DNA from: a bacterium
GTDB taxonomy: Bacteria; Myxococcota_A; Bradymonadia; UBA7976; UBA1532
DNA: 64,000 nt
Assembly: GCA_030426085.1 (NCBI GenBank)
Contig: JAUHYW010000057.1
Location: forward strand, 1-64,000
Direction of reading: 5' to 3'
Shown in pieces: positions 1 through 10,142 of this stretch. Every line of letters starts with the position of its first letter. Positions within the stretch are counted from its first letter, which is position 1. Both the position numbers and the translations under genes were made by a program. The notes under the pieces were generated by a model, which was given only the letters and a program-made list of their open reading frames with translations, did no database searches and was not told the DNA's origin.

Positions 1-2854
1 CGCGGGTGCTCGCGGGGGCCGGCCGGCGCGGGCTCGGCGTGGGCAGCGAGGTCGCCGGTCGGGCCCGCCGGCCGGGTGGGGCCGCGGGCGAAGGGCCGGG
101 CGCCGGATCGGCCACCGGCGTGACCAGCGTGGCCACCCCCGCGTCGAAGCCGGCTTCGGAGGCCACCGCCCGCCAGGCGCGGGCGCCGATCTCGGGCGTC
201 TCGGCGGCGTCGAACCGGCGCAGAGCCTCGGCTAGCCCCGGCGCGCCTTCGCTCAAGCGGCGCTCGATGCGCGCGACGATGCCGGCGATGGGCGGCCCGT
301 CGGCGGTGGTCTGGAGGCGAGGGGCGAGGCGCGCGGCCCACTGCGCCGCGGCGCGGCCGCGGTCACCGACGGGGGGCGCGACGCGGCTCGGGGCGTCGGC
401 CGCGGCTTCGGGTGCCGTCGTCCGGGCCGCGGCCGCGGTCGGCGCGGGCGCAGGAGCAGCGGCCGCCGTCGGAGGGGCCGCCGTCGGGCGCGCCGCGTCC
501 ACCAAGCCGGCAGCCGGTGAGGCGGTGGGGCCCGCCTCGGCAGCCGGTGAGGCGGTGGGGTCCGCGTCGGGAGCCGGGCTCGCGGCGTCCGGCGTCGGGC
601 CGAGGCGCGCGGCCGGGGTGTCGGCCACCGGCGAGACGAAGGTCGGCGCGGGCGGCTTGCCGAACTCGGCGATCCGGGGCGTCGCGCCGCCGAGCCCGCC
701 TGCCTCGGGGCTCAGCAGGGGCACGTCCCCCAGGGCGACGGCGAGGCGCTCGGCGAGGGCCCGCGCGGCCGCGCCGGTGGCCCCGGGCTGCGCGGGCGTC
801 GGCGAGTCGAGGGCGCTCGGCGCTGTGTCGGGCTCCAGCGCGGCCAGCAGCCACGCCCGGGAGCCGATCTGCGGCGCCGGGCGGGGCGCGGGCGACGCCG
901 GTCCGGCGCCCGGCGCGGTCACCATCGCCGCGGGCGGCAGCGCGCGCGGGGAGGCGATCGGAGAGGAGGCGCCCGGGGGTGTCACCGAGCCGATCGACGG
1001 CGCCCCTGCGCGGCGGGCGGCGGCGGGGGTGAGCGCGGGCGATGTCGGCGGGCGTCGCCCGGGGGCCGCTGCGGAGCCGGGCGAGGTGGGGGGGCTCGGG
1101 CTGGCCGACGTCGCGCGGCCGGGCCCGGCGGCCGCCGGCTCGGGGGCTGAGGCGACCGGGGCCACCAGCGCGCCAGCGGGGGCGTCGACATAGCCCACGC
1201 GGGGGTCGATGGACCGGGGCCCACCGTCGAAGTCGAGCGGCCCCATCTCTTCGGCGGCTCGGAGCCGGGCGGCGAGCCCCGGCAGCCGGTCCTCGGCCGG
1301 GGCCCCGGGCAGGGCGAGGCGCCCGTCGATCCGGGGGCGGCCGGCGCGGGTCGCGGCGGGCGGCGCGAGCAGGCCCGAGCCCATCGCGCGGGCGACGGCC
1401 TCGGCCATGCGCGCCGCGGTCGGCAGCCGCGAGGGGGCGCGGGGGCTCGCGGCGCGGATCGCCTGCGGCCGGGGGGCGCCGGGTCGGTCATCGGCCGGGC
1501 GCGTGGCCGCTCCGGGGGTCGTCGCCGGGCGCGCGTCGAGCGGGGTCTCGGCGCGCTGTTCGGGGGCGCGGCCCGGGGTCGGCGCGGCGCTCGATCCCGC
1601 CGCGGCGTCCGCTCCCGCCGCTTGGCCGTGCGCGTCGCGGGTCGGACGGCCGGGCGCGGGGCGCGGGGCGCGGGGCGCGGGGGCCGCGCCGGGTTCATCG
1701 CCGACCGGCGCGACGAAGACGCCGTCCGGGGCGGTCATCGCCAGCTCGGACGGCGGGGCGTCCACCGTCGCCGGGCCGAGGGCCATGCCGGCCTCGCGCG
1801 CGATCCGCTCGACGAGGCCGCCGATGCCGATCTCGGGCGCCGGCCCGTCGGGCGGGCTGGCGATGGGGATGAGCCACGTCGCGATCGGGGCGGCCGCGGC
1901 CGGCACCAGCCGGTCGACGAGCCCCTGCATCATGCGCTCGGCGCCCCGCGAGGCCGGGGTCAGCCCGGCGCCGTCGGGCATGAGGTCGAGGGTCGGGGGC
2001 CCGGCGACGATGGCCGGGCTCGCCCCGCCGATGCGGGCCCGGGCCTCGGGGAACCGCACGAGGCCGGCGTCGAGCGCGCCGGCCCGGCCCATGGCCGCGG
2101 GGTAGGCGCTGATCCGCTGTCCATCGACCGCCCGCCACCGCTCGCGCGCCATCGCCCGCCGGGGCGTGACGGGTCGCGGGGTGGCCGCGGTCGGGCCGGC
2201 TCGGCGGGCGGCGCGCGCGGCGCGGGTCGGGGTCGTCGCCCCGGCGTCGGCATCGGTCGGCTCGGCGATCGGCTCGACGAACGGGCCCGGCGGGGCATCG
2301 AGCGGCGCGTCGGCCGGCTGCGGCGCGCCGGGCTCGGCGAGGCGCGTGTCGGGGGCCGCGTCCACCCGCGCGGCCGCGGGACGCGGCGGGGCGGCGGGGG
2401 AGACGAGGGGGTGGCTCGGCCGGGGGGAGGCCGGCGCGGCCGCGCGGGGGGCGACCGCGCGCATGGCCGTGGGCGGCCGGCGGCGGGCGGCCCGCTGCGC
2501 GGTGCGGGCGTCGAGCGGCGCCGGCTCGGCGGGATCGACCGGCACCACGTACGGGGCGTCGAGCCCGAACTGCGCGTCGAAGTAGCCCACCCGGCCGGAC
2601 CAGTCCCGGGCCAGCTCGGCCAGGCCGTCGAGGTCGAACAGCTCGACGCCCCCGTCGAGCCGGTCGGGCAGCGTCCAGCGGGCGGTCAGGGCGTCGAGCA
2701 GCGGGCTCGCCTCGCCGGGCCCGGCGACGCCGAAGCGGTCGAATCGCTCGAAGACGCCGTCGGCGTAGGCCTCGAACCGCATCGTCATCGGTGCGCTGCG
2801 GTCGGCGACGAGCGCGCCGGCGAGCGGGTCCGGTCCGTCGAGCGTGGACGCCAT
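1..2854 (-). CDS. Large Pro/Ala-rich eCIS-associated protein, 3' end beyond window
   Basis: This minus-strand frame is open from an ATG at 2854 to the window edge, about 951 codons without a stop. The start has a GGGAGG ribosome site just upstream and lies 43 bp after tube B in the same direction, so it belongs to the injection-system operon. I do not recognise the family. Residues 1-115 look folded (RFEAYADGVFERFDRFG, LARDWSGRVGYFD). After that the protein is low-complexity Pro/Ala/Arg with spaced islands. Six islands share a short motif, hydrophobic-x-P-[VI]-x-x-x-P: YVVPVDPAEP (about residue 102), WLIPIASPP (325), FVAPVGDEP (380), LVAPVASAP (563), FVSPVADTP (738) and LVTPVADPAP (911). Two copies begin R-V-G-Y-x-D-A. 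The contractile-tail context suggests a structural, adaptor or cargo-linked role, but no function can be assigned from sequence. Confidence 0.72.
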   Translation of the reverse strand, partial: MASTLDGPDPLAGALVADRSAPMTMRFEAYADGVFERFDRFGVAGPGEASPLLDALTARWTLPDRLDGGVELFDLDGLAELARDWSGRVGYFDAQFGLDAPYVVPVDPAEPAPLDARTAQRAARRRPPTAMRAVAPRAAAPASPRPSHPLVSPAAPPRPAAARVDAAPDTRLAEPGAPQPADAPLDAPPGPFVEPIAEPTDADAGATTPTRAARAARRAGPTAATPRPVTPRRAMARERWRAVDGQRISAYPAAMGRAGALDAGLVRFPEARARIGGASPAIVAGPPTLDLMPDGAGLTPASRGAERMMQGLVDRLVPAAAAPIATWLIPIASPPDGPAPEIGIGGLVERIAREAGMALGPATVDAPPSELAMTAPDGVFVAPVGDEPGAAPAPRAPRPAPGRPTRDAHGQAAGADAAAGSSAAPTPGRAPEQRAETPLDARPATTPGAATRPADDRPGAPRPQAIRAASPRAPSRLPTAARMAEAVARAMGSGLLAPPAATRAGRPRIDGRLALPGAPAEDRLPGLAARLRAAEEMGPLDFDGGPRSIDPRVGYVDAPAGALVAPVASAPEPAAAGPGRATSASPSPPTSPGSAAAPGRRPPTSPALTPAAARRAGAPSIGSVTPPGASSPIASPRALPPAAMVTAPGAGPASPAPRPAPQIGSRAWLLAALEPDTAPSALDSPTPAQPGATGAAARALAERLAVALGDVPLLSPEAGGLGGATPRIAEFGKPPAPTFVSPVADTPAARLGPTPDAASPAPDADPTASPAAEAGPTASPAAGLVDAARPTAAPPTAAAAPAPAPTAAAARTTAPEAAADAPSRVAPPVGDRGRAAAQWAARLAPRLQTTADGPPIAGIVARIERRLSEGAPGLAEALRRFDAAETPEIGARAWRAVASEAGFDAGVATLVTPVADPAPGPSPAAPPGRRARPATSLPTPSPRRPAPASTR

Positions 2855-2897
2855 CAGGGCCTCCCGGCGCGGAGCGCGGTGTTCGGGGCCGCCGCGC

Positions 2898-3353
2898 TCA
2901 CGAGCTGATCTCGTCGTAGGCCAGCTCGAGGGTCTGCACCGCGATCTGCGACTGCGCGCCGTCGAGCTGGGGGCCCTCCCACTTGACCGGCCAGCAGCGG
3001 CTGAAGCTCCAGGTGCGCACGGTGTCGCCGGCGAGGTTGAGCAGGTTGACGGTCACCGTGCGCCGCGGCCCCCGCTTCTTGGAGAACTCCCGGTGCCAGT
3101 TCTCGAGCGCCGGCTTGAGCAGGTAGCCGGTCTTGAGCACGAGGTTGGGGTAGGAGCCCTGCCCGGGCAGCTTGTGCGTCCGGTCGTTGAGCCCGCCCTC
3201 CTGGTGGGTGGTGATCTCGAACTCGTGGCTCAGGCCGCCGACCGACTGGAAGCGGGCGACCGCGCCGTCGAAGCCTTCGATGGACACCGAGAACCGGAAC
3301 GCGCCGAGGGGGCGCGAGTCGGGGCGGGTCTCGTTCTCCTTCTCTCCGGCCAT
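2898..3353 (-). CDS. eCIS tail tube protein (tube B)
   Basis: A 151-aa protein of the phage T4 gp19-like inner tube family. Such subunits stack as rings inside the contractile sheath. The signature is the N-terminal core FRFSVSIEGFDGAVARFQSV followed by GGLSHEFEITTHQEGG. The C-terminal part contains WSFSRCWPVKWEGPQLDG and ends in a beta-strand, LELAYDEISS. The length matches the family (about 150 aa). It is paralogous to the tube protein at 5861-6310, sharing the F-x-F-x-V-x-I-x-G core and the W-P-x-K-W motif near the end. It starts 4 bp after sheath B on the same strand, so the two are probably co-translated. Minus-strand orientation and spacing place it in one eCIS transcript. The family assignment is firm; the order of the two tubes in the particle is unknown. 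Confidence 0.9.
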   Translation of the reverse strand: MAGEKENETRPDSRPLGAFRFSVSIEGFDGAVARFQSVGGLSHEFEITTHQEGGLNDRTHKLPGQGSYPNLVLKTGYLLKPALENWHREFSKKRGPRRTVTVNLLNLAGDTVRTWSFSRCWPVKWEGPQLDGAQSQIAVQTLELAYDEISS

Positions 3354-3357
3354 CGTC

Positions 3358-5109
3358 TCACTCCTCTCCCGCCGACTGGGCCTCGTTCTCGAGCCGCTGG
3401 GTCAGTCGGAACACGATGAACTCCAGCGGTCGGGTCACCGAGAGCCACACCTCTGTGATCAACATACCTGCTTCGACCACGTCGGTGGGATTGGTCTCTC
3501 GATCGCAGCGCACGATGAACGCCTCTTCGGCCGAGGCGCCGGCCAGCATGCCCCGGGCGTAGAGCTGCCCGAGGAAGGCGGCGACCTGGCGGCCGATGCG
3601 CTTCCACAGCCCCGGCGAGTTGGGCTCGAAGACCACCCACTGCATGCCGGTGTCGATGGCGGCCATGATCGCGCTGACCGTGCGCCGCACGTTGACGTAG
3701 CGCCACTCGGGCTCGCTGCTGGTGGTGCGCGCCCCCCACAGCCGCAGCCCGCGGGCCCCGAACGGGCGCATGCAGTTGATGCCGGTGTCGTTGAGCGTCG
3801 CGAGGTGGGTGTCGCGCAGCAGCACTGCGAGGTCGACGATGCCCTCGACCATCTCGTTGGCCGGCGCCTTGTGCACCCCCACCCGGCGGTCGCTGCGGGC
3901 GTAGATGCCGGCGACGTGGCCCGATGGGGGCACCGTCTGCCGCTTGCCGTCGCGCAGCACGATGACCCACGGGAAGTACAGCGCCGCCTTGTCGGAGTCG
4001 AACTGCCGCCGCCAGCGCAGGGCCTCCTCGAAGTCGCAGCCCGGCGGCATGTCGAGCAGCGCGAAGCGGTTGAGCGAGCGCTCGCACAGGCTGATCGCCG
4101 CCTCCTGGACCGCCTCGACCCCGCGCAGGGTGAACCGGGTGCTGCGCTCGAAGGCGCTCATCAGGTCGGGCATCACGACCAGGTCGATCAGATCGTACTC
4201 CACCAGGCTCATCAGCCCCCGGCGGTCGCCCGGGCCCCGGTCGTGGCCGATGAAGTCCCCCGGCCCGAGGTCGACGAGCCCGTCGGCTCCGCCCTCGAGC
4301 CGCACCGCCGCGAGGGCCATCGGCCCCGACTGCTCGAGCGGGGTGTCCGGGCGCAGGGCGGTGCATCGGATGAGCGCGCTCTGCTCGTTGAGCGTGCGCT
4401 CGACGTACTGCGGGCTCGCCCCGGCGAGGGACAGGCCGCTGAACCGCTCCTCGCGTTCGAAGTCGCGGACGTGCACGTCGAAGGCGTGGGCCACGACGTA
4501 GGTCGGCGCCGACGAGACGAAGTCCCGCTCGAGCGGCTCGGTGAGCAGCAGCCGCTTGCCGTCGACCCGGCGCACCGTCGTCCACTGGGTGTGGTTCTGG
4601 TCGTGCACCCTGATCCGGGTGCCCGGCGCCAGCCCGTGGGTGCTCTTGACGTGCACCTCGGTCTCGCCGGCGTCGGCGTCGAGGGTCAAGAAGGTGCGGT
4701 TGGGCTCGGTGGGGGTGACGGTCAGCTCGACCCGGTTGCCCCAGCTCCCCGGGTCGACCGCCTCGATGCGCAGGGTCGGCTCGCCGCCCGCGTCGAGCAC
4801 GGTGTAGTGGGCCACCCGGGCCACCGCGTCGTCCGGGCCGCCCTCGACCCGGGCGATGCGCAGCACGTAGCAGTCCTGCCCGCCGTTGTCGAAGAAGCCC
4901 CGCAGGGCCGGCCCGAGGTAGCCGTCGGGCAGGGCCTCGCCGAACAACTCGACGAAGCGGGCCTCGCCGTTGATACGGACCGGCCGATCGAGCGGCCCCC
5001 GGCGGGTGATGCCGAGGAAAACCGGCACCCCGGACTCGCCGAGGGCGAGCGGGGCGATGCGCTGCTCGCTCGGTTCGAAATAGACGCCGGGGGCGCGCAC
5101 CTCTCGCAT
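3358..5109 (-). CDS. eCIS contractile tail sheath protein, long form (sheath B)
   Basis: A 583-aa sheath subunit. It begins with the family start REVRAPGVYFEPSEQR and ends with the conserved C-terminal domain. That domain contains HKAPANE, GINCMRPFGARGLRLWGAR, SSEPEWRYVNVRR, QWVVFEPNSPGLWKR and a terminal strand near EVWLSVTRPLEFIVFRL. Sheath subunits polymerise round the tube and contract to drive it through a target membrane. Compared with the 384-aa paralogue at 6383-7537 it carries about 200 extra residues between the N-terminal arm and the core (roughly 100-290), including a beta-rich insert. That insert would face the outside of the particle in known sheaths, which is inference. It is followed after 4 bp by tube B. 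Confidence 0.93.
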   Translation of the reverse strand: MREVRAPGVYFEPSEQRIAPLALGESGVPVFLGITRRGPLDRPVRINGEARFVELFGEALPDGYLGPALRGFFDNGGQDCYVLRIARVEGGPDDAVARVAHYTVLDAGGEPTLRIEAVDPGSWGNRVELTVTPTEPNRTFLTLDADAGETEVHVKSTHGLAPGTRIRVHDQNHTQWTTVRRVDGKRLLLTEPLERDFVSSAPTYVVAHAFDVHVRDFEREERFSGLSLAGASPQYVERTLNEQSALIRCTALRPDTPLEQSGPMALAAVRLEGGADGLVDLGPGDFIGHDRGPGDRRGLMSLVEYDLIDLVVMPDLMSAFERSTRFTLRGVEAVQEAAISLCERSLNRFALLDMPPGCDFEEALRWRRQFDSDKAALYFPWVIVLRDGKRQTVPPSGHVAGIYARSDRRVGVHKAPANEMVEGIVDLAVLLRDTHLATLNDTGINCMRPFGARGLRLWGARTTSSEPEWRYVNVRRTVSAIMAAIDTGMQWVVFEPNSPGLWKRIGRQVAAFLGQLYARGMLAGASAEEAFIVRCDRETNPTDVVEAGMLITEVWLSVTRPLEFIVFRLTQRLENEAQSAGEE

Positions 5110-5169: not shown

Positions 5170-5331
5170 CTATCGCCGGGAGTCGTTGATCTCTTTGTTG
5201 ATGGCCGAGATCTCCTTGATCCAGAGCTGCCGTTCCCGGTGCTCCATATCGAGGACATCGTTCAGCGACCAGTGGAAGTGATAGGCGATGTAGGCTACCT
5301 CCTGGAAGATGCGTTCCAGGGGGTAGCTCAC
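5170..5331 (-). CDS. Small eCIS protein, DUF6760-like
   Basis: A 53-aa protein. A longer frame could start upstream, but a GTG at 5331 overlaps the TGA of the preceding gene (GTGA). That gives the product VSYPLERIFQEVAYIAYHFH followed by a helix with DVLDMEHRERQLWIKEIS. The aromatic YHFHW stretch and the D-M-x-H-x-E-R-x-x-W helix resemble the small DUF6760 family found in extracellular contractile injection loci. It resembles the C-terminal end of a phage tail assembly or GpG/E-like chaperone. It sits between the 123-aa CxxC protein and sheath B. A role in tail assembly is inferred only from position and size. Confidence 0.75.
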   Translation of the reverse strand: MSYPLERIFQEVAYIAYHFHWSLNDVLDMEHRERQLWIKEISAINKEINDSRR

Positions 5332-5699
5332 GATTCCCCCAGCTCCACTCCCAGATCGAGCTCGTAGCGGTGTCCGCACGCCGGGCAGGCGGTCTTGAAC
5401 TTGGCCGAGCCCTCCTCGTTGATCCGGCGGTAGAACTCCTGCAGGTACGCCAGATCGGACGAGAACAGCCGCTCGATCACCGACGGGTTCACGCTGCTCA
5501 ACGAGCCCAGCTTCCGCACCACCCGGGCCAGCAGGATGATGACCAGGTAGGCCCGGTTCTGCTGGACCCGATAGTCCTGAAGCGGCGCGATCTCGTCCTT
5601 GGCCGTCGCCAGGCGCATCACCCCTTCACGGTGCAGGTTGCCGTCCTCGTCGACGAAACCCTTGGGCAGGACGAAGGGAAATTCGGTCTGGAATGCCAT
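5328..5699 (-). CDS. eCIS conserved protein with CPxCGH motif
   Basis: A 123-aa protein with an N-terminal segment FPFVLPKGFVDEDGNLHREG, a central helical part (QNRAYLVIILLARVVRKLG) and a C-terminal CPACGHRYELDLG. The N-terminal phrase 'LPKG-x-x-D-x-x-G-x-x-H' is typical of small tail-assembly proteins encoded beside sheath and tube genes. The single CxxC with a nearby His suggests half of a zinc knuckle, or a zinc site completed by a partner; no second CxxC is present. Its stop codon overlaps the GTG of the next gene, so the two small proteins are translationally coupled, as capsid or tail assembly chaperone pairs often are. The exact function is unknown. Confidence 0.78.
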   Translation of the reverse strand: MAFQTEFPFVLPKGFVDEDGNLHREGVMRLATAKDEIAPLQDYRVQQNRAYLVIILLARVVRKLGSLSSVNPSVIERLFSSDLAYLQEFYRRINEEGSAKFKTACPACGHRYELDLGVELGES

Positions 5700-5860: not shown

Positions 5861-6310
5861 TCAGCCGCCGGCCTGCTTGCGCTCCCAGCGCTCGACGACG
5901 AACTCGATCTCCTCGACCGCGACGTCGGTGCCCTTGCCGTCGAGGCTGAAGCCCTTCCACTTGCAGGGCCACGCCTCGAAGAAGTCGTAGCGCATGACCT
6001 CTTCGCCGTGGTCGTTGCGCAGGATGATCGACCCGTTCTGGCGGTTGACCTTGCCGTCCATCACCTCCTTGCGCCAGTCCCACAGCTCGGTGCTCGAGAT
6101 GTAGCCGCGCTTGCAGACGATGTTGCTGTACTTGGTCCGCCCCGGCCGCTTGCGCAGGATCAGGTCGTCGCCGTCCTGGTACTCGATGATCTCGGTCTCC
6201 GAGTCCAGACCCTCGACGTTGCGGAAGGCCGCCTGGGTGATGCCGTTGATCTCGACGGCGAAGTTGAACTGACCGATATGGTCGTGCTGGCGACGATTGT
6301 CGGTGGCCAT
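5861..6310 (-). CDS. eCIS tail tube protein (tube A)
   Basis: A 149-aa gp19-family tube protein with the core FNFAVEINGITQAAFRNVEG, then LDSETEIIEYQDG and a C-terminal AWPCKWKGFSLDGKGTD. It is paralogous to tube B at 2898-3353 and has the same length. The start ATG at 6310 is preceded by an AGGAGG-type site. It lies 72 bp after sheath A in the same direction, so the locus has two sheath-tube pairs in the order sheath A, tube A, two small genes, sheath B, tube B. In characterised eCIS one tube paralogue usually builds the bulk and another contacts the baseplate. Which does which here cannot be told. The stretch 5700-5860 downstream has no convincing gene. Confidence 0.92.
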   Translation of the reverse strand: MATDNRRQHDHIGQFNFAVEINGITQAAFRNVEGLDSETEIIEYQDGDDLILRKRPGRTKYSNIVCKRGYISSTELWDWRKEVMDGKVNRQNGSIILRNDHGEEVMRYDFFEAWPCKWKGFSLDGKGTDVAVEEIEFVVERWERKQAGG

Positions 6311-6382: not shown

Positions 6383-7537
6383 TTACTCGGCGACGTCCCC
6401 GCCGGTCGGCATCTGGCCGATCCGGAAGATCACGAACTCGGCCGGCTTGACCGGGCAGATGCCGATCTCGACGACGAGCTGACCCGCGTCGATGACCTCG
6501 GGCGGGTTCGTCTCGTCGTCGCACTTCACGTAGAACGCCTGCTCGGGGGTGGCCCCGAACAGCGCACCGTCACGCCACACCCGCAGCAGGAACGCCGTGA
6601 TGTTGCGCGAGACCCGCTTCCACAGGGTCTGGTCGTTGGGCTCGAAGACCACCCACTGGGTGCCGCCCTCGATCGACTCCTCGATCATGTTGAAGAGCCG
6701 GCGCACGTTCAGGTAGCGCCACTCGGGGTCGCTCGAGATGGTGCGCGCACCCCACACCCGGATGCCCCGGTTGGGGAAGCTGCGGATGCAGTTGATGCCC
6801 TTCGGGTTGAGCAGGTCCTGCTCGCCCTTGGTGATGTTGTACTTCAGGCCGAGCGCGCCGCGCACGATCTCGTTGGCCGGGGCCTTGTGCACCCCCCGCT
6901 CGGCGTCGGTCCGGGCGTAGATGCCGGCGACGTGACCCGAGGGCGGCACGAAGATGTTGCCGTGGTTGGGGTCGTAGATCTCGATCCACGGGAAGTAGTA
7001 CGCGCCGTACTTGCTGTCCCGCGGCTTGGGCAGCTTGTCGACCCCGCCCTTCTCGATCGTCTCCGGCGCGTCGAGGATCGCCATCCGGTAGCGCATCTTC
7101 TCGCAGTGGGTCAGCACCGCGTCCTGGATGGCCGGATCGGTCTGCCCGGGGGCGACCACGATCTTGATCTCGGGCACCTCTTCGAAGGCGTGCAGGCCGG
7201 TGCGGGCCCCGGGGCCCTCGTCCTTGCCGATGTAGCGCGCCGGCAGCTTGTCCTCCGCCTCGCCCTCTTCGGGCAGGCCGACGTTGAGGACGAAGCAGCG
7301 CGCCCCGCCGTTGTTGAAGAAGCCGTACACCGCGTGGGCGAAGTGCCCCCCGTCGGCGAAGTCACCGAAGTTCTTGGTGAACGTCGTCCAGTTCGGACAG
7401 AACACCACCTCGTTGATCGGCCCCTTCTTGCTCCCGCCGATGAATCCGACGGTGCTGGTGCTGACCGCCTCGATGGGCTTGTTGCCCCCCGAGACTTCTT
7501 CCACATAGACCCCAGGCGACAAATACTCAGGCGCCAT
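6383..7537 (-). CDS. eCIS contractile tail sheath protein, short form (sheath A)
   Basis: A 384-aa sheath subunit. It starts with LSPGVYVEEVSGGNKPIEAV, the usual sheath N-terminal arm, followed by STSTVGFIGGSKKGP. The C-terminal half holds HKAPANEIVRG, GINCIRSFPNRGIRVWGAR, SSDPEWRYLNVRRLFNMIEE, GTQWVVFEPNDQTLWKRVS and a final strand VVEIGICPVKPAEFVIFRIG. These features are shared with sheath B. The length is that of a minimal eCIS sheath. The start ATG at 7537 follows a GGAGG-like site. It is preceded by the DUF4255 gene, a common order at the head of eCIS operons. As the shorter, undecorated paralogue it is a reasonable candidate for the bulk sheath. Confidence 0.94.
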   Translation of the reverse strand: MAPEYLSPGVYVEEVSGGNKPIEAVSTSTVGFIGGSKKGPINEVVFCPNWTTFTKNFGDFADGGHFAHAVYGFFNNGGARCFVLNVGLPEEGEAEDKLPARYIGKDEGPGARTGLHAFEEVPEIKIVVAPGQTDPAIQDAVLTHCEKMRYRMAILDAPETIEKGGVDKLPKPRDSKYGAYYFPWIEIYDPNHGNIFVPPSGHVAGIYARTDAERGVHKAPANEIVRGALGLKYNITKGEQDLLNPKGINCIRSFPNRGIRVWGARTISSDPEWRYLNVRRLFNMIEESIEGGTQWVVFEPNDQTLWKRVSRNITAFLLRVWRDGALFGATPEQAFYVKCDDETNPPEVIDAGQLVVEIGICPVKPAEFVIFRIGQMPTGGDVAE

Positions 7538-7588: not shown

Positions 7589-8185
7589 TCACGCCAGCGC
7601 GGGCACGACCCGGATCTCCTTGTTCTCCGTGCGGCGCAGATCATCCGAACGCCGCGGCGACTCCAGCTTCAATCGACAGGTATACCCGATCGCGGGTCGG
7701 AGATGCTCCCCGAACCCCCTCCACATCGACATGAGGAACTCCGCCGACAGATCCTCGACCGGGCGCAGCGGGATGCGCTCGTCGGGATCGAAGGCGTCCC
7801 CTTCGAGCAGATCGCCCTCGAGTACGGGCGTCTGCAACAGGATGCGCATGGCCGCCCCGAGCAGCTCCTGCTGCTCGGCGTCCTCGTCAGCCCACGCGGT
7901 GATCAGGTAGTCCAGGCTCACCCGCATGGCCGGATCCTGGTAGAACTCGTGGATCGTGCCGTCGGCCTCGATGCGGGTGACGAACGTCGGCAGATCCTCC
8001 CGCCGCCGGGGGCGGACCCAGGTGCGGTAGAGGTACACCCCCAGCGCGGGGGTGCGGGTGAACTTCTCCCGCAGCGGGGGCCCGGTGACGACCAGGATCG
8101 AGCGGCCCAGGATCTCGCGCGCACCGTCCTCCAGGAGAGTCGCGATGGACTCTGAAGTCTGGCGAAAGATGCGATGCTGCGCCAC
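7589..8185 (-). CDS. DUF4255 / Pvc16-type eCIS protein
   Basis: A 198-aa protein starting at a GTG (8185) with an AGGGGGC site upstream. It has the DUF4255 (Pvc16 N-terminal) layout: an N-terminal helix (ESIATLLEDGAREIL), the segment LGVYLYRTWVRPRRREDLPT, then LDYLITAWADEDAEQQELLGAAMRIL and ending near FLMSMWRGFGEHLRPAIGYT. In known eCIS particles the Afp16/Pvc16 protein caps the tail and fixes its length; that role is family knowledge. It is the first gene of the minus-strand eCIS operon, divergent from the lipoprotein gene at 8425. The operon promoter should lie in 8186-8347, but I see no strong match to the -35/-10 pattern used elsewhere in the window. Confidence 0.88.
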   Translation of the reverse strand: MAQHRIFRQTSESIATLLEDGAREILGRSILVVTGPPLREKFTRTPALGVYLYRTWVRPRRREDLPTFVTRIEADGTIHEFYQDPAMRVSLDYLITAWADEDAEQQELLGAAMRILLQTPVLEGDLLEGDAFDPDERIPLRPVEDLSAEFLMSMWRGFGEHLRPAIGYTCRLKLESPRRSDDLRRTENKEIRVVPALA

Positions 8186-8347
8186 GCTGCCCCCTGCTTC
8201 GAGGATCGGCCAGACGCAGCATGCCAGCCCCGGGGCCCGACAGGCAACTCCCGAATTGTCTCAAAACGGATCGCGATGCGCCGGGGCCACCCGCCGTCAC
8301 GACCACCGCCCCCGAACGGGGGCGGTTCGAGGGGCGCGGGCCCCGGC

Positions 8348-8377
8348 TTGACACCTGTTTCGGGCCGGTGCTAGTCC
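8348..8377 (+). promoter_or_regulatory. Predicted sigma-70-type promoter for the lipoprotein pair
   Basis: TTGACA at 8348-8353, an 18-bp spacer, then TAGTCC at 8372-8377. The putative +1 lies about 40 bp before the ATG at 8425. The -35 has the GGCTTGAC context seen at other promoters in the window. The -10 is only a partial match. Confidence 0.5.
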
Positions 8378-8424
8378 ATTGCCTGTCGCTGATCCGCCAC
8401 AGGTCGTCACGCCATGGGAGCCCG

Positions 8425-9273
8425 ATGAGAAGCCGGATTCTGCTCGCCGTCGCGCTGGGGATGGTCGGCGCGCTCGGCGCCTGCACGACCGAAGAGGTCA
8501 AGCCCGACGGCGCGTCGGGTGAGGACGCGGAGAAGACCGGGGCGCAGGAGCTGTTCCTCGACAAGCTCACCGACGACTTCGTGCACGCCGAGGGCGGCGA
8601 TGCGACCGACTGGAAGTTCTTCAAGATCCGGGACAAGGGCATCCTGACCCTGACGGTCTACTGGGACAACAAGAACATCCGCTCGATCATCGACGTGCGC
8701 GACCGCTTCGGGGCGCTGCTCGACACCCGGCGCCACTCGTCGGAGCTCGAGAAGGACGTCATGGAGCTGCGGGTCGAGCCGGGCACCCACTTCGTGCGCC
8801 TGTTCAGCGAGAAGGGGCAGAGCGTCTACACCATCGAGGCGGTCTTCCAGCAGTTCGACCACTCGCCCACCGACGACTTCCGGCCGACCGCGGTCGGCGG
8901 CGACCTGCTCGGCGACCCGCTCGCCGGGGACGACGCCCGCCCCGAGCCGCGCCCCGCCCGCCGCTCGCGCAACCGGGGCCGCCGCCCGCGCCCCCGGCCC
9001 GATCCGAAGCCCGAGGCGAGCGGACCGACCATCGGGGCGACGATCGTGCGCATCCTGCCCAACAGCCGGGGCACGCTGCTGACCCTCAACCGGGGCACCG
9101 AGCACGGCATCTCGCTGGGGGATTCGGGTTACATCGTCGATGACGACGGCAAGCCGCTGAAGGGCGGCGAGATCCAGATCAAGAGCGCCGACGGGCGGGT
9201 CTCGACCGCGCAGACCCGGCTCGAGAAGAAGAGCATCGCCCACCATCGGCGGGTGAGGGTGAGGACCCGATGA
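8425..9273 (+). CDS. Lipoprotein with PPC-like and Arg/Pro-linker regions (paralogue 1)
   Basis: A 282-aa predicted outer-envelope lipoprotein. I chose the ATG at 8425 because it gives a short signal peptide ending in the lipobox LGAC; the frame is open further upstream. The mature part has an N-terminal domain (about residues 35-130) with DWKFFKIRDKGILTLTVYWD and THFVRLFSEKGQSVYTIE, resembling a pre-peptidase C-terminal beta-sandwich. A linker of about 35 residues is rich in Arg and Pro, and the C-terminal domain begins IGATIVRILPNSRGTLLTL. The following gene is a paralogue with the same three-part layout and overlaps it by ATGA. The function is unknown. Periplasmic anchoring is inferred from the lipobox, and the basic linker could bind peptidoglycan or LPS. 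Confidence 0.85.
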   Translation: MRSRILLAVALGMVGALGACTTEEVKPDGASGEDAEKTGAQELFLDKLTDDFVHAEGGDATDWKFFKIRDKGILTLTVYWDNKNIRSIIDVRDRFGALLDTRRHSSELEKDVMELRVEPGTHFVRLFSEKGQSVYTIEAVFQQFDHSPTDDFRPTAVGGDLLGDPLAGDDARPEPRPARRSRNRGRRPRPRPDPKPEASGPTIGATIVRILPNSRGTLLTLNRGTEHGISLGDSGYIVDDDGKPLKGGEIQIKSADGRVSTAQTRLEKKSIAHHRRVRVRTR

Positions 9274-10142
9274 CGCGTTCCGTGATGCGGATGACCCTCG
9301 CGCTGGCGATCGTCGCGATCGCCGCGTGCAGCACCCGCGAGGTCAAGCTCGACAGCAACTCGGGCGGCGACGCCGCCCGCGATCAGGCGATGGCGGTCTT
9401 CATCGACCGCACGGTCACCGACCGGCTCGATGCGCCCGGCGGGGATCACACCGACTGGAAGTACGTCGACATCCTCGACAAGGGCGGCCTGCGGGTCGAG
9501 GTCAGCGTCGACACCCCCGAGCAGCTCGGCAAGAGCTTCATCGAGCTGACCGACGCCTTCGGCAACCGCCTCGATCGGCAGCTCGTCTCGCAGGGCCAGA
9601 CCAACTACGTGTTCAGCCGCGAGGTCGAGACCACGCCCGACAAGTACTACGTGCGGGTCTTCACCGAGCAGGGCGGGTCGGTCTACACCGTCGGCGTGCG
9701 GCTGGCCTACGCCCCCGAGCCTCCCCCGCCGACGACCCCCAAGCGGGTCGTGCCCGACCCCGAGCCCGAGCCCGAGGTGAAGCCGCGCACGCGGCGCCGC
9801 ACCCGGACCCGGCGCCCCCGGCCGGTCAAGAAGGACCCCCCGCCGCCGCCGCCTCCCCCGCCGCCGCCGCCCGATCCGACGCCGGCCGCGGCGCCGATCA
9901 CGGGCACCGTCGTGCGCATCATCCCGACCAAGGACGATCAGGCCGTGACCCTGACGATCGTGGTGCCGAGCGGCTCGAAGGTCGGGGCGAGCACCCACCG
10001 GGCGGTGGCCTACAAGGGCGGCAGCGCGCTGCCGGCCTCGGTCAGCATCCTCAAGGTGAGCGGGCGCAAGATCACCGCCCGGCTCAACGAGGTGCCGGGG
10101 CAGGCCGCCGGCACCAACAAGGTCAAGTTCATCCCTCGCTGA
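9270..10142 (+). CDS. Lipoprotein with PPC-like domain and polyproline linker (paralogue 2)
   Basis: A 290-aa lipoprotein, translationally coupled to the previous gene by an ATGA overlap. The signal peptide ends in IAAC. It shares with its neighbour the S-G-x-D-A start after the lipid Cys, the TDWK motif, the KYYVRVFTEQGGSVYTVGV strand and a C-terminal domain beginning ITGTVVRIIP. The linker differs: a basic stretch (TRRRTRTRRPRPVKK) is followed by a run of twelve prolines encoded by (CCG/CCC) repeats at 9838-9872. Pair duplication is evident, and the two products may form a complex. No enzymatic motif is visible. Confidence 0.85.
   Translation: MTRSVMRMTLALAIVAIAACSTREVKLDSNSGGDAARDQAMAVFIDRTVTDRLDAPGGDHTDWKYVDILDKGGLRVEVSVDTPEQLGKSFIELTDAFGNRLDRQLVSQGQTNYVFSREVETTPDKYYVRVFTEQGGSVYTVGVRLAYAPEPPPPTTPKRVVPDPEPEPEVKPRTRRRTRTRRPRPVKKDPPPPPPPPPPPPDPTPAAAPITGTVVRIIPTKDDQAVTLTIVVPSGSKVGASTHRAVAYKGGSALPASVSILKVSGRKITARLNEVPGQAAGTNKVKFIPR

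Follow-up and report, generated by a model that had tools for sequence, protein, structure and literature searches.

In phages, tail-assembly chaperone pairs serve the tape measure (lambda G/GT, P2 E/E'), and in phage P2 the tape-measure gene T is followed by U and D. In the diffocin, the C-terminal helices of the tape measure trimerise on the spike and the N-termini lie at the collar (PMC10996793). In contractile injection systems (CIS), the spike cavity is closed off by three copies of Cis6, which assembly requires (PMC8894135), and a loop of the plug extends into the lumen (PMC8894136). Such parts have been reported missing in some systems. The haloarchaeal CIS of Halogeometricum borinquense is reported without plug and without tape measure (PMC11566945), and the Streptomyces coelicolor CIS without a tape measure, with uniform particle length (PMC12237407).

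We analysed a 64,000-nucleotide stretch of DNA (hereafter, the window), base 1 of which is base 1 of contig C140 from a 10.1-Mb genome (G000) whose relatives are Myxococcota MAGs. On its minus strand, a frame of 951 open codons runs from an ATG and leaves the window at base 1, ending with the contig and not at a stop codon; this is the stop-free frame that an earlier note, made from the sequence alone, had pointed out. The frame is real and coding, which we conclude from a G+C fraction of 0.94 at third codon positions (0.82 and 0.72 at first and second), the ribosome-binding site ahead of the start, and an excess of third-position differences from the sister genome (177, 146, and 277 differences at positions 1, 2, and 3 in aligned blocks). 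Orthologues of the encoded protein, which we call the giant, were found in eight genomes of the family. A nucleotide search of its own genome returned, beyond the locus itself, only short low-complexity matches.

The frame lies in a CIS operon (Table 1). An orthologue of the first inner-tube gene (L039:2978-3463) matches PF06841, and the GTG start of the DUF6760 gene overlaps the upstream stop (GTGA). The 123-residue chaperone was the best conserved among the operon genes compared. Divergent from the operon, two lipoprotein-like genes with proline-rich linkers occupy window positions 8221-10142 (+), and the sister genome has a similar gene beside its operon. The window's own genome contains at least two or three more CIS loci (L137, L138/L185, and L139, on contigs C14, C17, and C32): C14 carries a 551-residue slot protein (19% proline) and a chaperone, C17 has neither, and C32 is cut by the contig end.

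Table 1. Features of the giant and of the CIS operon, with positions in the window.
Feature	Position	Strand	Basis or remark
Giant slot protein, N-terminal 951 residues	2..2854	-	Cut at contig end
Shine-Dalgarno-like GGGAGG	2860..2865	-	5 nt ahead of ATG
Conserved N-terminal block, residues 1-112, ends FVVPVDPxE	2519..2854	-	Alignments; AF2 helices low-confidence
Second conserved block, residues 236-275, ERWRxxG..SPYPxxxGxAG..LLRFPEARA	2030..2149	-	Alignments
YVVPVDPAEP, residues 102-111, family-conserved position	2522..2551	-	Motif copy
FVEPIAEP, residues 192-199, additional to the earlier note's list	2258..2281	-	Motif copy
WLIPIASPP, residues 327-335, family-conserved WL position	1850..1876	-	Motif copy
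FVAPVGDEP, residues 380-388	1691..1717	-	Motif copy
LVAPVASAP, residues 563-571	1142..1168	-	Motif copy
FVSPVADTP, residues 739-747	614..640	-	Motif copy
LVTPVADPAP, residues 910-919	98..127	-	Motif copy
Second inner-tube gene (gp19 family), directly upstream of giant	2898..3353	-	PF06841 E 2e-37
Second sheath gene	3358..5109	-	Pfam PF04984/PF17482, PHROG 23
DUF6760 protein, 53 aa	5170..5331	-	PF20546 E 3e-15; P2 gpE PF06528 E 0.0017, below cut-off
Tail-assembly-chaperone-like protein, 123 aa, highly conserved	5328..5699	-	PHROG 508 'tail assembly chaperone' E 6e-6
First inner-tube gene (gp19-like)	5861..6310	-	E 9e-20 to second tube
First sheath gene	6383..7537	-	Pfam
Cis16/Pvc16 cap gene, first in operon	7589..8185	-	PF14065 E 2e-23

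The remainder of the giant was found on a second contig of the same genome. A search with the C-terminus from the sister genome located the C-terminal part at C149:1301-1489, within a frame that is open from the contig start and adds 496 residues (L049:2-1492). By alignment to genome G001, roughly 100 residues are missing between the two parts, which gives a predicted full length of about 1,550 residues; we note that the C140 and C149 halves are joined by homology, not by reads. The earlier note had raised the possibility that the frame is interrupted just outside the window, and instead C149 continues it in frame. A tube gene flanks the first half on C140 and Cis7 flanks the second on C149, where the end of the giant is followed by Cis7 (CIS_tube and LysM), a VgrG-like hub (Phage_GPD), a zinc-ribbon protein, gp25, baseplate J, a Cis12-like protein with PASTA, a Cis13-like protein, and an FHA protein. 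The PASTA domain is N-terminal in the Cis12-like protein (L049:7389-8303), and the FHA protein, which also carries a zinc ribbon, closes the operon (L049:9966-10778); these two proteins suggest regulation by phospho-signals or contact with the envelope.

Six complete orthologues, of 1,320–1,492 residues, all lie in the order tube, giant, Cis7. Conservation among them is concentrated in the first 112 residues, the ERWR block, and the last 60 residues (consensus LSPEExxxIAxEVIxxLxRExE...RxGEDEWD), and the middle of the protein can be aligned merely in patches. The window protein contains 17% proline and no hydrophobic (transmembrane) segment, and the AF2 model of its N-terminal 345 residues had a pLDDT of 44.

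A short LVxP motif recurs along this chain. All six islands listed in the earlier note are present (starting at residues 102, 327, 380, 563, 739, and 910), as is the R-V-G-Y-x-D-A sequence ahead of two of them (RVGYFDA and RVGYVDA). That list had missed the copy at residue 192 and a weaker one, LVSPAAPP, at residue 150. In its strict form, with the last proline preceded by three spacer residues, the pattern matched four times in the window protein (shuffles 0.28±0.53, maximum 4), and allowing three or four residues gave six matches (0.49±0.69, maximum 3, in 2000 shuffles). The core [LFVIMWY][VIL]xP[VTMAIL] is present in nearly all orthologues, with 70 copies in the orthologues and window protein together versus 17±4 in shuffles. 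When the core was defined from the window alone and tested on the orthologues, it had 17 matches versus 1.5±1.2 (maximum 7), and nine of the 17 were outside the two conserved N-terminal positions. Since proline is somewhat scarcer and hydrophobic residues commoner upstream of the motif, and the sequence downstream is proline-rich, each repeat seems to consist of a short ordered segment, the LVxP motif, and a linker, in this order.

In slot proteins of most other families, LVxP occurs at background level. The motif is real by these sequence comparisons, but it is confined to this family and does not define the protein. Of the modular scaffold described in the earlier note, the chain itself is supported: it is long, modular, for the most part disordered, and repeats its short motifs within a contractile-injection operon. 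The motif as the defining feature is not supported, because proteins at the same position in most other families are without it, an outcome that the note itself had named as refuting. LVxP as a signature of the slot protein was rejected on this ground, and a role in docking the chaperone lost weight, as families without the motif still conserve the chaperone.

Across Myxococcota, large proteins are encoded in this slot, downstream of the second tube gene and ahead of Cis7. Cis7 (PF19266) was found in 126 of 284 sampled genomes of the phylum, and our slot survey covers loci from about 40 of these 126. The slot holds a protein of 551–2,129 residues in 30 complete loci, the window's family included. 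It holds a DUF5908 protein of 53–62 residues in three genomes (G167, G228, and G232), and no credible slot gene was seen in G041, G046, G140, G184, or on contig C17 of G000. The large slot proteins are hardly alignable with one another, and relatives in family f4 contain just 2–3% proline. Based on the P2 gene order, this slot corresponds to the tape-measure position of that phage; Cis7 on C149 weakly matches P2 gpU. No tape-measure match was found when 31 slot proteins were compared with PHROGs, and a Pfam search of the window protein and 30 other slot proteins recognised a catalytic or effector domain in just one of the latter. In a 606-residue slot protein (L135:993-2810, minus strand), an eCIS_core (DUF4157) domain lies inside a chain that ends in a plug-like helix, possibly a fusion of cargo and plug.

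The large slot proteins end in a shared pattern, D-h-x-x-L-A-x-E-V-x-x-x-h-x-x-x-L-x-x-E-R-E-R-R-G. In leave-one-family-out profile searches, ranked over all open reading frames of a locus, the C-terminus of the slot protein itself was the best match at 32 of 36 loci, a consistent ranking in which many single E-values are weak. The count becomes 33 of 36 if the 1,718-residue frame at L047 is included, where the table entry had pointed to a short frame. A tail profile built from 20 sequences aligned in register with the DUF5908/Alg6 helix over 23 residues (hhalign probability 87%, score 28.5), whereas 150 shuffles of the columns scored no higher than 12 and the reversed profile reached 14. This similarity belongs to the multi-family profile, as the profile of family f1 alone was not significant against the plug. 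The same helix was the sole confident element in the AF2 model of the last 164 residues from the sister genome. The small slot protein of G167 matched Algo6 of PDB 7aef (1.2e-6) and Cis6 of 7b5h (2.6e-4). A PDB search with the giant's C-terminus returned no match, and no Pfam hit to DUF5908 was obtained for either the window protein or the C-terminus of the family. In sequence terms, the giant is defined by its slot, its plug-like C-terminal helix, and the upstream chaperone pair, a context that lay beyond the view of the earlier note, and not by the motif.

Two modules occur in Myxococcota CIS, a chaperone with a slot protein of 551–2,129 residues and a DUF5908 plug with CIS_TMP (PF19268), and the two are mutually exclusive per locus; as the plug and CIS_TMP cases come from two families only, there are few independent events behind this exclusion. 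CIS_TMP and DUF5908 scored above cut-offs in the same three of 50 CIS genomes (G167, G228, and G232). Across the phylum sample, CIS_TMP was above cut-off in six genomes, and the CIS_TMP contigs of G264, G269, and G094, which carry no tube or Cis7, were left out. An AAA+ gene lies next to CIS_TMP in G228 and G167, the two plug loci examined downstream. The chaperone was found in 45 of the 50 genomes, on nearly every stretch with a giant, and was absent from G228 and G232. Genome G167 has both modules at separate loci, a chaperone with a 1,809-residue giant at L184 (C126) and a DUF5908 plug with CIS_TMP, AAA+, and an eCIS_core protein at L146 (C13). Three genomes with the chaperone have no gene between tube and Cis7 (G041 at L115, G046 at L118, and G140 at L114), and a tape-measure equivalent was not found at these loci.

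Similar arrangements were seen beyond the phylum, on plasmids. Slot proteins with a similar C-terminal end accompany a chaperone on plasmids of Paenibacillus (532 residues), Nostoc (524; Nostoc sp. UHCC 0926), and Paraburkholderia (878), and likewise on those of Rhizobium (335), Embleya (255), and Rhodococcus. Systems with a small slot and no chaperone were found in Roseomonas, Cereibacter, and Streptomyces clavuligerus pB. On a Haloferax larsenii plasmid, a hypothetical gene of 177 residues before Cis7 (L181:8286-8819) ends in a plug-like helix, although plug and tape measure are reported missing in this group of systems; a 2,319-residue frame here was set aside because codon composition supports only the annotated last 177 residues. 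A 1,381-residue frame in S. clavuligerus has flat codon composition and is uncertain.

Together, these patterns lead us to interpret the giant as the tape-measure-slot protein of the CIS, probably a combined tape measure and plug that is anchored at the spike and fills the tube lumen. The C-terminal helix encoded on C149 would take the place of the Cis6/Alg6 plug in the tube-facing spike cavity, next to Cis7/Cis8, and would anchor the chain there, probably as three copies. The remaining chain of some 1,500 residues, rich in proline and alanine, would then run along the tube lumen with its short ordered segments capped by LVxP, which may contact the tube, and with the conserved N-terminal block oriented towards the cap. 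If the lumen is assumed to measure 4 x 100 nm, with a volume of about 1,250 nm3, we estimate that three copies would take up about 550 nm3 of it. The chaperone pair (5170-5699) would keep the giant soluble and hand it over first, and the tube would then polymerise around it. Tube length could be limited by the chain, which would leave first on firing. Against this reading are the lack of a match to tape-measure families, the lack of a transmembrane segment, and, in this family, a high proline content unlike that of helical tape measures, along with a helix match that spans 23 residues and is non-significant for family f1 alone, and the three chaperone genomes that have no slot gene.

Other readings of the giant make different use of the same observations. 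As the main alternative, the giant could be lumen cargo, an effector that is held by its C-terminal helix and injected, with length set otherwise, as for Tme of the Streptomyces davawensis CIS, which is large, about 70% disordered, encoded just upstream of baseplate genes, and in contact with the spike and tube initiator (PMC11126660). The slot protein at L135 fits such a role, as it combines an internal eCIS_core/DUF4157 domain with the same kind of terminal helix, and three copies of the giant would fit the assumed lumen. We nevertheless regard this as unlikely, given that effector domains are absent from the window protein and 29 of the 30 others, that the C-terminus resembles a plug and not a toxin domain, and that chaperone co-occurrence and CIS_TMP exclusion point to a structural role. 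A cargo role is also compatible with the tape-measure and plug reading, and the two are not mutually exclusive.

Building on the modular scaffold of the earlier note, a further reading would place the protein outside the tube, with LVxP motifs that dock tube, sheath, or toxins. Motifs that recur along a flexible chain are what such a scaffold would have, but the motif is missing from most slot proteins of other families, which have the slot, the terminal helix, and the highly conserved chaperone in common with the giant, and the terminal helix points toward the spike interior; together these make the reading improbable. It is more improbable still that the giant is a non-functional or untranslated frame produced by very high G+C. 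Sequence of 81–84% G+C does yield long spurious frames on both strands, but composition and substitutions at third positions and the ribosome-binding site speak for translation, and conservation argues strongly against a spurious frame, with orthologues that keep their ends at a fixed position and an in-frame continuation on C149.

If the giant is indeed a tape measure and plug in one, it may explain how length is set in machines that seem to have no tape measure, and giant-type slot proteins would be testable candidates for both jobs in uniform-length CIS reported without one. The plug-like terminal helix would connect the C-terminal end of phage tape measures with the small plug Cis6, and the combination of slot, helix, and chaperone pair offers a genomic rule for finding this component despite poor sequence conservation. 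A broader reading, to which we give slightly less than even weight, is that these proteins form an overlooked and widespread class of CIS tape measure, a plug helix with an N-terminal extension of any length, which in this family would be a disordered, sticker-bearing chain and not a rigid helix. In most Myxococcota CIS, such a class could stand in for Cis6 as well as Cis14, and it would probably do the same in certain CIS from archaea and from other phyla that are reported to have neither.

Compared with described components, the giant shares with the Cis6/Alg6/Afp6 plug (DUF5908, PF19265) the slot between tube and Cis7 and a C-terminal amphipathic helix ending in ER/R. The plug is a protein of 50–60 residues with an N-terminal beta strand, whereas the giant has about 1,550 residues, no recognisable counterpart of that strand, and no DUF5908 match. 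Plugs of the DUF5908 type occur where CIS_TMP is present and never at the locus of a giant in our sample. Cis14/Afp14 (CIS_TMP, PF19268) resembles the giant in proposed role, and the two were never at the same locus in our sample. It differs in having no sequence match to the giant and another gene position, and it is absent from all surveyed genomes that have only a giant.

Phage-type tape measures (P2 gpT, Mu gp42, and diffocin CD1366) share with the giant the position between tube or chaperone genes and gpU-like or hub genes, an upstream chaperone pair, the status of largest gene, and a C-terminal helix expected at the spike. Like them, the giant has fairly constant length and variable sequence (1,320–1,492 residues in the six orthologues). 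Phage tape measures are, however, typically helical or coiled-coil chains with one or more transmembrane segments, whereas the giant is rich in proline and alanine, predicted to be disordered, without such a segment, and without a PHROG tape-measure match.

Among CIS effectors, Tme is likewise large and partly disordered and is encoded near tube initiator and spike genes (PMC11126660), but no counterpart was found in the giant to its DUF4157 domain, its transmembrane helices, or the nuclease at its C-terminus. Sle1 of Streptomyces lividans is a tape-measure-related effector, and Tme and Sle1 are encoded near initiator or spike genes or loaded in the tube (PMC11126660, PMC13277306); unlike the giant, Sle1 forms coiled coils, and its gene precedes that of the sheath. 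By sequence, the giant falls within none of the CIS_TMP, DUF5908, phage tape-measure, or DUF4157 effector families, and by analogy it would work like a tape measure fused to a plug.
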